Source: Candidatus Gordonibacter avicola (GTDB taxonomy: Bacteria > Actinomycetota > Coriobacteriia > Coriobacteriales > Eggerthellaceae). From it: a stretch of 64,000 bases of DNA. The notes beneath the pieces are model-generated. The model saw only the letters and a list, made by a program, of their open reading frames with translations, was not told where the DNA came from and searched no databases. The translations under genes and the position numbers were made by a program. Positions 4,080 through 54,393 of the stretch are shown piece after piece (position 1 is the first letter of the stretch; each line of letters opens with the position of its first letter). The stretch covers positions 1 through 64,000 of the forward strand of contig DXGM01000009.1 in assembly GCA_019113915.1 (NCBI GenBank). The letters run 5' to 3'.

Positions 4080-4654
4080 ACACGGTAGTGGTTTACTCGT
4101 CACAGACGGGGTTCACCAAGAAGTATGCGGAATGGATCGCCGAGGAACTGGGCTGCGAAGCTGTCTCGCTCAACGACGAGCCGCGCTTCGACGCGGAAGG
4201 CTTCGACGTGGTGGTGCTCGGTGGCTGGTTTCATGCGGGAGGCCTTATGGGGAAGAAGTGGCTCGTGCGGCAGCGCGCGGCACACCCAAACACGCGCTTC
4301 GTCGTGTTCGCTGTGGGCGCCACGCCGACAGAATGGACCGACATGGTAGACGAAGCCCTCACGCGCGAACTTCCCTCGCCGGACTTCGACGACGTGGAGC
4401 GCTTCTACCTGCGCGGCGGGTTCGCCTACGAGCGCCTGAGCACGCCAAACAAGCTGGCCATGAAGCTGTTCTTCAAGATGCAGGAGAAGAATGCGGCCAC
4501 CGACCCGCGCGCCGCCGAGATGCTCTCTGGCATGCGCGGCGGCTTCGACGGCACCGATCGCGCCTCCATTGCGCCCGTTATCGCCAGCGCTCGCAGCCAC
4601 GCCTGCGTAACCCCGCCCGCGCCTAGCGGTGTTGGGCCGTCTCGATCCTCTTGA
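4076..4654 (+). CDS. Flavodoxin-domain protein
   Basis: A 192-residue protein whose N-terminus (MNTVVVYSSQTGFTKKYAEW) is the flavodoxin phosphate-binding loop. VVVLGGWFHAGGL and FVVFAVGATP follow as the other flavin-site strands. It resembles flavodoxin-like proteins such as protoporphyrinogen-oxidase-type HemG, but lacks enough signal to call that. It probably carries FMN and acts as a cytoplasmic electron carrier or reductase. The start overlaps the tetR stop by 4 bp. The last ~10 codons overlap the end of the convergent carD gene (4623-4654). Confidence 0.75.
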   Translation: MNTVVVYSSQTGFTKKYAEWIAEELGCEAVSLNDEPRFDAEGFDVVVLGGWFHAGGLMGKKWLVRQRAAHPNTRFVVFAVGATPTEWTDMVDEALTRELPSPDFDDVERFYLRGGFAYERLSTPNKLAMKLFFKMQEKNAATDPRAAEMLSGMRGGFDGTDRASIAPVIASARSHACVTPPAPSGVGPSRSS

Positions 4655-52485: not shown

Positions 52486-52744
52486 CGCAACTCCTCTCGC
52501 TTTCGCAGGCCTGTCGGGTGTCTGCCCCAATCGGCCCGCCCCCACTCGGGTTGACGCGAGTTAAACACGCAAATGGTATGACCCCATCGCGTAAAGAGTA
52601 TGCAGATTACGAATCAGTACAATAGTATGAGACGCTGACCAGGAAAGATGTGACCGCAGTATTGGGGGAGTGAAAGAGGGGCAGCGTGCTGGCGCGCGTA
52701 GTGTGTCGATTAGTGCCGGAAACAGACAAGCGGTCAAAAACAAC

Positions 52745-52825
52745 TTTCTGTTTTAGAAACATTTTGGCTTGAATTCTTTCTGTTTTAGAAACATACTAGC
52801 CCTAAAATCTTCTGTTTTAGAAACA
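52745..52825 (+). promoter_or_regulatory. Three 17-bp palindromic direct repeats at exact 32-bp spacing (putative operator)
   Basis: TTTCTGTTTTAGAAACA occurs at 52745-52761 and 52777-52793, and with one mismatch at 52809-52825. Each contains the inverted pair TTTCT/AGAAA. The 32-bp period is about three helical turns, so all copies face the same side. A promoter -35 TTGAAT (52769-52774) and -10 CATACT (52792-52797) overlaps the middle copy. The DUF4143 ATPase starts 20 bp after the last copy. The rest of 52486-52844 has no gene. Confidence 0.75.
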
Positions 52826-52844
52826 GGGAAGAGGTGCGGCACGC

Positions 52845-54227
52845 ATGCTCAAGCGTAAAATGTATGACAAGCTTCTCGCTTGGAAGAGCGCTCCGAAGAA
52901 AAAAGTGCTCATACTTCTGGGCGCTCGCCAAACAGGAAAAACCTTTATCGTTCGTGAATTTGCGCGCGACAACTATCCCAACTTTCTCGAAGTTAACTTT
53001 CTTGAGGACGAAGACGATGCGGCGTTCCTTGCTGGCGCGGATAGTGCTGACGAACTTGTCTCGCGCCTTTCGCTCATTGCCGGTCGTGCGCTGGAGCCCG
53101 GAACGCTGGTGTTTCTCGATGAGGTGCAGCGGGCGGCTTCAAACATTGTGACGCTCTCGAAGTTCTTGCTCGACGATGGTCGTTTCGATCTGATTTTGTC
53201 TGGGTCGCTTCTAGGGGCGGCGCTTGAAGGGGTGACGTCGTTTCCAGTGGGGTACGCACGAACCGAGCGCATGTATCCTCTCGACTTCGAGGAATTTTGC
53301 TGGGCGACAGGAGTTCCCGTTAGCATTATTGATAAAGTGAAGACCTGCTACCGCGACAAAAAGCCGCTTGAGCATACGTTGCATGAGCGGCTTACGAAAC
53401 TGTACCGCCAGTACATCGCGGTTGGTGGCATGCCGGAGGCTGTGCAGCGCTTCCTTGATGGCAATCGCGATCTGGGGGCCGCGCGCGAGGTGGCAACCGA
53501 CATAGCAGAGCAGTATCGCTTCGACATTACCAAGTATGCCACTGGTCGCAAGCTACAGATTCGCACGATTTTCGACAACATTCCTTCTCAGCTGTCGAAG
53601 GAAAACAAGCGCTTCATGATGAAGTCGGTGAAGCAGGGGGCCACCTACGAGCGTTTGGATGACGATTTCGCGTGGCTTGTTAGCGCGGGGGTGGCGCTGC
53701 CGACGGTCATTGCGAGTGAGCCAAAATACCCTCTTGCGCGTACGAAGGTGCCTGAGAAATTCAAGCTGTATTCTTCCGATTGTGGCTTGCTGCTTGCGCA
53801 GTATCCGCAGGTAGCTGCCATCGAGGTGGTGTCAGGGGAGGGGGATGCCAACTTCGGCGCGGTTTATGAGAACGTGGTCGCACAGGAAATTAAAGCTGCC
53901 GGCTTTCCTTTGTACTACTATCACAACAGCCGCAAAGGCGAGATGGACTTCCTCCTTGAAACGGGCGAGGGCACGGTTATCCCTCTTGAGGTGAAGTCGG
54001 GCAAGGATTACAAACACCACGTTGCGCTCAACAACTTGTTAGAAACGGAAGAATACGGCATCGAATGTGCCTACGTCCTGTCCGAACACAACGTTTCGAC
54101 CGAAGTGCGCGAGGGTAAGCCCGTATATTACCTCCCCCTCTACATGACCCTCTGCCTCTCACTAGAACGAGGAAACGATCTCGAAGGCGTGAAACTAGAA
54201 GAAGTCTCCTTCGACGACTGGACTTAA
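52845..54227 (+). CDS. AAA+ ATPase with DUF4143 domain
   Basis: A 460-residue protein. Walker A is GARQTGKT (26-33), the Walker B region is LVFLDEVQ (~88-95), and LILSGSLLG is the sensor-1-like strand. The middle helical region includes YIAVGGMPEAVQRF, typical of the AAA_14/DUF4143 family. The C-terminal DUF4143 part has a PD-(D/E)XK-nuclease-like pattern (EMDFLLE ... PLEVKSG). Function in the cell is unknown; these genes are scattered and mobile in gut anaerobes. The three-copy operator upstream suggests tight control, perhaps by the protein itself. Confidence 0.85.
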   Translation: MLKRKMYDKLLAWKSAPKKKVLILLGARQTGKTFIVREFARDNYPNFLEVNFLEDEDDAAFLAGADSADELVSRLSLIAGRALEPGTLVFLDEVQRAASNIVTLSKFLLDDGRFDLILSGSLLGAALEGVTSFPVGYARTERMYPLDFEEFCWATGVPVSIIDKVKTCYRDKKPLEHTLHERLTKLYRQYIAVGGMPEAVQRFLDGNRDLGAAREVATDIAEQYRFDITKYATGRKLQIRTIFDNIPSQLSKENKRFMMKSVKQGATYERLDDDFAWLVSAGVALPTVIASEPKYPLARTKVPEKFKLYSSDCGLLLAQYPQVAAIEVVSGEGDANFGAVYENVVAQEIKAAGFPLYYYHNSRKGEMDFLLETGEGTVIPLEVKSGKDYKHHVALNNLLETEEYGIECAYVLSEHNVSTEVREGKPVYYLPLYMTLCLSLERGNDLEGVKLEEVSFDDWT

Positions 54228-54249: not shown

Positions 54250-54393
54250 TTACCACTCAAGCTGGTCCTCAGTTAGACAATCCTCAAGTTTTTCTGCTGC
54301 TTCCGCTTGCAGCGACTCGCCCATGCCGGGGATCCCGTTGAGGAAAAGAGTTTCTTCGATGGCGGTCTGGGTGTCTTCATCCACGGGAACCAC
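54250..54393 (-). pseudogene. Antitoxin-like C-terminal fragment (Phd/YefM or RelB type)
   Basis: A 47-residue open frame 7 bp downstream of the luxR stop. It reads TAIEETLFLNGIPGMGESL and ends LEDCLTEDQLEW, like the C-terminal toxin-binding tail of Phd/YefM antitoxins (IPGMxES ... (S/T)E(D/E)x(V/L)EW). The N-terminal DNA-binding half is missing, and a GTG start without a good ribosome site is the only option. No toxin gene is next to it. I infer a remnant; a very short functional protein cannot be excluded. Confidence 0.5.

Follow-up and report, generated by a model that had tools for sequence, protein, structure and literature searches.

Private arrays of direct repeats spaced by three helical turns usually precede close AAA_14-DUF4143 ATPase-nuclease genes in unrelated bacteria

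The locus described here lies within a 64,000-nucleotide stretch of the Candidatus Gordonibacter avicola genome (hereafter the window, meaning the whole of the DNA analysed), where a gene for an AAA_14-DUF4143 ATPase is preceded by three short repeats. The features of the locus are as follows:

52745..52761 (+): repeat 1 of the operator-like array, TTTCTGTTTTAGAAACA (from the sequence)
52777..52793 (+): repeat 2, TTTCTGTTTTAGAAACA, starting 32 bp past the start of repeat 1 (from the sequence)
52803..52808 (+): weak candidate for a -10 hexamer, TAAAAT, between repeats 2 and 3 and without a matching -35 (promoter-box scan)
52809..52825 (+): repeat 3, CTTCTGTTTTAGAAACA, starting 32 bp past the start of repeat 2 (from the sequence)
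52830..52836 (+): likely ribosome-binding site AGAGGTG, 8 bp 5' of the ATG (sequence reading)
52845..54227 (+): AAA_14-DUF4143 ATPase gene (COG1373, PADLOC PDC-S01), 460 aa (open reading frame, profile matches)
52899..53300 (+): AAA+ core, residues 19-152, with Walker A GARQTGKT and Walker B LVFLDE (profile match, alignment of 39 homologues)
53472..53774 (+): winged-helix region, about residues 210-310, presumed to be the DNA-binding part (predicted structure)
53823..54179 (+): C-terminal PD-(D/E)XK nuclease-like domain, residues 327-445 (residue pattern, predicted structure)

The 16-mer TTCTGTTTTAGAAACA occurs three times, at 52746, 52778 and 52810, with start-to-start steps of exactly 32 and 32 bp, and the last repeat ends about 20 bp 5' of the ATG at 52845. 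Three matches with up to three mismatches are present in the window against 0.01 expected, and a search of the whole 3.08-Mb genome with up to two mismatches returns only these three copies. The original prediction described three identical palindromes at exact 32-bp steps. The copy number and the spacing hold; the identity covers 16 nt and not 17, the 17-mer being the same in repeats 1 and 2 while repeat 3 differs at its first base (CTTCTG... for TTTCTG...). The palindromy had to be given up: the symmetric part of the repeat is only TGTTT-TAG-AAACA, with 5-bp arms, and across 83 arrays the mean dyad symmetry is 2.86 compared with 2.87 in shuffled columns, which rules out palindromy as a general trait and leaves direct repetition as the property that the arrays have in common. 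With repeats of 14-17 nt, spacers of 15-18 nt and 2-6 copies, they also fall outside the pattern of a CRISPR or guide array, in which repeats of about 23-47 nt alternate with spacers of similar length.

The protein encoded at 52845 matches the DUF4143 profile with 90.4 bits (cut-off 28.1; 1e-25) and the AAA_14 profile with 76.2 bits (cut-off 27; 3e-21), and residues 1-448 match the PADLOC model PDC-S01 (PDLC04792) with an E value of 6e-173. Residues G26..K32, D92-E93, E342, D368 and E382-x-K384 are invariant in 39 homologues, and the Walker A and B motifs and the PD-(D/E)XK catalytic residues are intact. A predicted structure (mean pLDDT 85, pTM 0.87) was compared with known folds; residues 1-321 match PABY2304 (Z 16.9 over 269 residues, rmsd 4.3), SSO1545 (Z 15.6 over 267 residues, rmsd 4.1) and the STAND ATPase CED-4 (Z 14.9 over 267 residues, rmsd 4.2), with plant NLRs and Avs5 also among the matches and Orc1/Cdc6 weaker. 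The model places an AAA+ core before a winged helix in the STAND/SSO1545 arrangement, a likeness of predicted fold only. The C-terminal domain, residues 327-445, reaches a pLDDT of 88 when modelled alone; its best fold matches are weak (McrC, E 1.6e-3; EcoO109I, E 6.5e-3; none below 1e-3), and its residue pattern fits PD-(D/E)XK. A search of solved structures by sequence gave only a weak match to Midasin, and a search of PHROGs only a weak match to a clamp loader. The predicted architecture of the 52845 protein comprises an AAA+ ATPase, a winged helix and an intact PD-(D/E)XK nuclease. DUF4143 genes can be very numerous in single genomes, with 25 DUF4143 matches in one genome (G020) and 18 in another (G158).

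Close DUF4143/AAA_14 ATPase-nuclease genes from unrelated bacteria usually carry their own upstream array of short repeats, three turns of the helix apart. For a first upstream comparison 80 relatives of the 52845 protein were fetched; the close-relative set comprises 110 genes from Actinobacteria, Firmicutes, Bacteroidota and Verrucomicrobia, and Gammaproteobacteria plasmids were checked separately. Arrays were scored as chains of 15-nt units at steps of 31-34 bp with a threshold of at least 6, a value that 700 shuffles never exceeded. By this measure, arrays of 2-6 direct repeats at 32/33 bp precede 86 of the 110 close relatives and only 2 of 28 distant DUF4143 genes (Fisher 3e-12). With both groups taken from the same Coriobacteriia genomes, the counts are 21/30 for close and 2/28 for distant genes (P=7e-7). 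Other lag sets score in 0-9 of the 110 close relatives, compared with the 86 at 31-34 bp, and leave a small residue near 22 and 44 bp. As a control, the regions 5' of other genes on these contigs score in 6 of 329 cases; the figure had stood at 20/345 before open reading frames with an upstream stretch reaching into the array or the ATPase were dropped. Among the proteins tested, the array accompanies PADLOC models 04786/04792 rather than 04787/04790.

The geometry of the arrays is narrow. Steps are of 33 bp (133 cases) or 32 bp (50), copies are mostly three or four, and among array-bearing relatives the last repeat has a median position of -47 relative to the start codon. The mean autocorrelation over the 200 bp upstream peaks at lags 32-33 (0.34, 0.37) and 66 (0.33), where control stretches give about 0.26-0.28 at lags 32-33, and minor peaks at lags 11, 22, 43-44 and 54 complete a series that indicates helical phasing. 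The 24 close relatives below the array score include several with readable weaker or inverted copies; a few of the 24 (L155, L224) have none.

Plasmid-borne relatives in Vibrio, Acinetobacter, Glaesserella, Parabacteroides, Ruminococcus and Agathobacter also have the array in front of them, and three gut-virome contigs that were deposited as phage contain it too. In an independent sample of Bacteroidota genomes, picked by Pfam match and not by closeness to the gene of the window, 15 of 17 genes close to the window's ATPase carry it. Since 6 of 16 distant DUF4143 genes in that sample also reach the array score, the boundary of the subfamily is not sharp, and the feature may extend beyond the close relatives of the window's gene. 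The distant Bacteroidota genes L211, L218, L243 and L247 are clearly preceded by two or three repeat copies at 32/33-bp steps, and in two of these cases the repeats are palindromic.

The architecture is kept, and the repeat sequence is not. It had been proposed that the 17-mer itself might be found upstream of homologues and serve as a marker of the family; no other exact match exists in 138 family genomes, each gene has a repeat of its own, and what homologues retain is the 32/33-bp arrangement. The literal 16-mer was likewise discarded, with only single one-mismatch hits in 6 of the 138 genomes, one of which (G065) belongs to a relic array at the orthologous site. None of the 80 fetched relatives has the literal repeat, although the closest of them (L010, protein 69% identical) has the version TTTCTGTGTTAGTAACA, with two substitutions, both present in all three copies. 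Paralogues within one Prevotella genome have different repeats (AAATCTCAAAAAGGT, ATTTGGTGGAAAACG, AATTTGCGGGAAATC, CTTTGTTTTTGAAAC, TCTCCGTTTGAAACA and CTTGGAAAAACGGCA), and orthologues in different genomes (L242/L246/L228) have a common one, with a similarity of 0.80-0.82 at 81-86% protein identity. Across 85 arrays, the more alike two proteins are, the more alike are their repeats (Mantel rho 0.53; largest of 1000 permutations 0.22), and another test of repeat against protein similarity gave a rho of 0.57, reached by 0 of 500 permutations. Genome searches with a module's own repeat hit only its own array in the window's genome, for the paralogue L097 and in G154 and G157, and nearly only its own array in G020. 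The repeats are private to the promoter of their own gene, as those of an autoregulated operator array would be. In a sliding-window analysis of covariation between protein and repeats the strongest windows are scattered (residues 96-124, 197-241 and 350-373; partial correlations at most 0.2); as the winged helix is not singled out and the specificity-setting residues are not localised by it, common descent could explain part of the correlation.

The original prediction also held that the array overlaps a promoter, and at the window's locus any such promoter is weak or escapes recognition: the -10-like TAAAAT lies between repeats 2 and 3, and a sigma-70 promoter scan of 52560-52900 gave no match above threshold. 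Were TAAAAT the -10 element, repeat 2 would cover the -35 region, and the start site would fall at repeat 3. Among relatives the picture is clearer, with the array overlapping -10/-35 elements in many of them. TATAAT-like boxes cluster 18-26 nt past a repeat start, and 35 of 48 hits fall in spacers, as if the repeat supplied the -35 element in those relatives that have a recognisable TATAAT. Where -10 boxes can be recognised, most of the array lies upstream of the box or start site.

The array and the gene move horizontally as one unit, without a partner gene. Two loci (L074 and L084) are 97.7% identical from just 5' of the first repeat to 54 bp past the gene, and their flanks are unrelated; similar borders are seen in L052/L056 and L080/L082, where homology begins near the first repeat and stops soon after the gene. 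No conserved neighbour of the ATPase gene was found in the annotated plasmid loci. Neither terminal inverted repeats nor target duplications are visible at the L074/L084 borders, as judged from the two occupied loci. Some clostridial modules (L029/L030, about 4380-4455) end in an inverted repeat, ATTCGAACCC...GGGTTCGAAT, which resembles a tRNA T-arm and is possibly a terminator or an attachment remnant.

At the orthologous position in the genus, the ATPase is missing between the same two flanking genes in the three relatives with an assembled site out of four searched; in the fourth (G067) both flanks reach contig ends without an ATPase. One relative, G065, holds a two-copy relic or empty array at the site (L186, about 1432-1486), TTTCTGATTGAGAAACA and GTTCTGTTTTGGAAACA 32 bp apart, without the ATPase gene, and two others (G066, G068) have a toxin-antitoxin-like pair in this intergenic site. 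Translated-sequence reading names intact YefM/YoeB-like pairs there in two genus relatives, and also a decayed, reverse-oriented remnant of the YefM-like antitoxin gene with 79% identity at 54251-54363 (-) of the window (corresponding stretches: L188, about 1261-1373; L187, about 1793-1905). Long GC-rich inverted repeats (GGAATCGGAGGGGCTGCGCGGGCCCGCTGT...) occupy this intergenic site in two relatives of the genus, L186 (about 1120-1290) and L189. Arrays have been duplicated elsewhere: in L067 about 70 bp with two repeats (2791-2870) recur directly past the ATPase stop codon (4288-4360), and in Bifidobacterium panos (L049, 1150-2960) the array flanks a reverse-oriented distant DUF4143-type ATPase on either side. 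The two duplications, and the relic in G065 as well, can be explained by recombination between arrays.

In our judgement the repeats are probably an operator array private to the gene, to which the ATPase itself binds cooperatively; it would serve autoregulation, most plausibly repression. The main rivals to this operator reading give the array a role in mobility or make it a tether for a sensor. An ATPase-nuclease that moved, excised or copied the module, with the array as its recombination element and the promoter overlap secondary, would fit the module borders near the first repeat and soon past the gene seen in unrelated contexts, the displaced arrays of L067 and L049, and the geneless array of G065. 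The same pattern would result from homologous recombination, or from tandem duplication followed by loss, however; few array copies lie anywhere but 5' of their own gene (clear multi-copy cases at 2 of 57 loci), the L074/L084 borders lack visible terminal inverted repeats or target duplications, and the protein has no recombinase domain, so we regard this account as unlikely. Quite doubtful, too, is a nuclease that polymerises in an inactive form on its own array and is activated when an invader disturbs it, expression control being a by-product; the STAND-like predicted fold, with CED-4, plant NLRs and Avs5 among its matches, the invariant nuclease and ATPase residues, the near-universal and private array and the candidate defence label would all suit such a sensor, but the promoter overlap and the fixed site just upstream (median last repeat at -47) have a simpler explanation in an operator.

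A separate host regulator, perhaps a global one, is improbable as the binder, and the unrelated global regulator that could have refuted the original prediction is unlikely for the same reasons: paralogues that share a genome have different repeats, the repeats are confined in that genome to their own array and travel with the gene between hosts, and one regulator per module would be required. Least credible, and very improbable, is a function of the repeats in RNA, as a leader structure or guide-like array. Their closeness to the start codon would suit it, but in relatives with a recognisable -10 most repeats precede the box and would be left out of the transcript, the helical harmonics point to DNA, and no dyad symmetry is conserved; an Rfam scan of the window region found no family above threshold.

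Because a solitary gene carries the array between hosts, and the array changes in sequence with the protein and occurs nowhere else, the simplest account is that the protein reads its own array, and the same-face spacing together with the promoter overlap points to cooperative autoregulation. The comparison of relatives strongly supports the proposal that the phased array is the mark of a regulated accessory system based on these ATPases, and that the ATPase is its likely binder. We infer the ATPase as binder, repression as effect and defence as role. The array would then be the operator of a self-contained, horizontally moving single-gene module. The ATPase would bind the repeats before its own gene, assembling cooperatively and head to tail along a single face of the DNA, since 32/33 bp correspond to three helical turns, and would control its own promoter, most likely holding the nuclease scarce. 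A trigger such as phage infection may alter its nucleotide or oligomeric state and thereby change this control, and, with a repeat sequence of its own in each module, several modules in one genome would not cross-regulate. A further version, which we hold to be rather unlikely, would make the array both operator and resting place: if the assembly were disturbed, as when a phage takes over transcription or replication, the nuclease would be released, and private repeats would keep the modules independent.

Archaeal Orc1/Cdc6 proteins combine an AAA+ domain with a winged helix and have repeated origin boxes near their own gene. The 52845 protein resembles them in its predicted AAA+ and winged-helix parts and in the repeated boxes near its gene; unlike Orc1/Cdc6, the DUF4143 modules have many chromosomal copies in varied contexts, a nuclease domain and no sign of an origin. 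A regulatory parallel is RptR, which represses a type I restriction-modification defence island through three direct repeats that it binds cooperatively, two repeats being sufficient (PMC12255303). Both cases have three direct repeats at the promoter of a defence gene, a candidate one here. RptR differs in that it is a small regulator in its own right, and its 9-bp repeats lie next to each other and contain a conserved 6-bp palindrome (PMC12255303), whereas the present modules have no regulator gene and have asymmetric repeats that are 32/33 bp apart and change from gene to gene. The STAND-like ATPase IniR, which has an SSO1545-like domain and binds a promoter region (PMC5760070), is of the same fold class as the modelled residues 1-321 of the 52845 protein. 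It differs in activating other genes through a C-terminal DNA-binding domain, and the available text describes no nuclease domain (PMC5760070). In the available parts of these reports, neither RptR nor IniR is described with gene-private arrays at three-turn spacing.

PDC-S01 (AAA_14-DUF4143 / COG1373), the same protein family as the 52845 protein (PDLC04792), is described in the available text as a single-gene candidate system, an ATPase fused to PD-(D/E)XK, not experimentally validated, which is reported to rank fourth in frequency among prokaryotic defence systems, with tens of thousands of copies counted in genomes (PMC12988326). A limited literature search, of sources available in part, found no published description of a cis array for PDC-S01, DUF4143 or COG1373. 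The private phased array names a candidate DNA ligand for each protein of this very common candidate defence family and can serve to tell array-bearing PDC-S01 subfamilies from the others. It defines the transferable unit as array plus gene, and predicts orthogonality between paralogues. Defence assays that use foreign promoters would remove a likely functional part of these modules.
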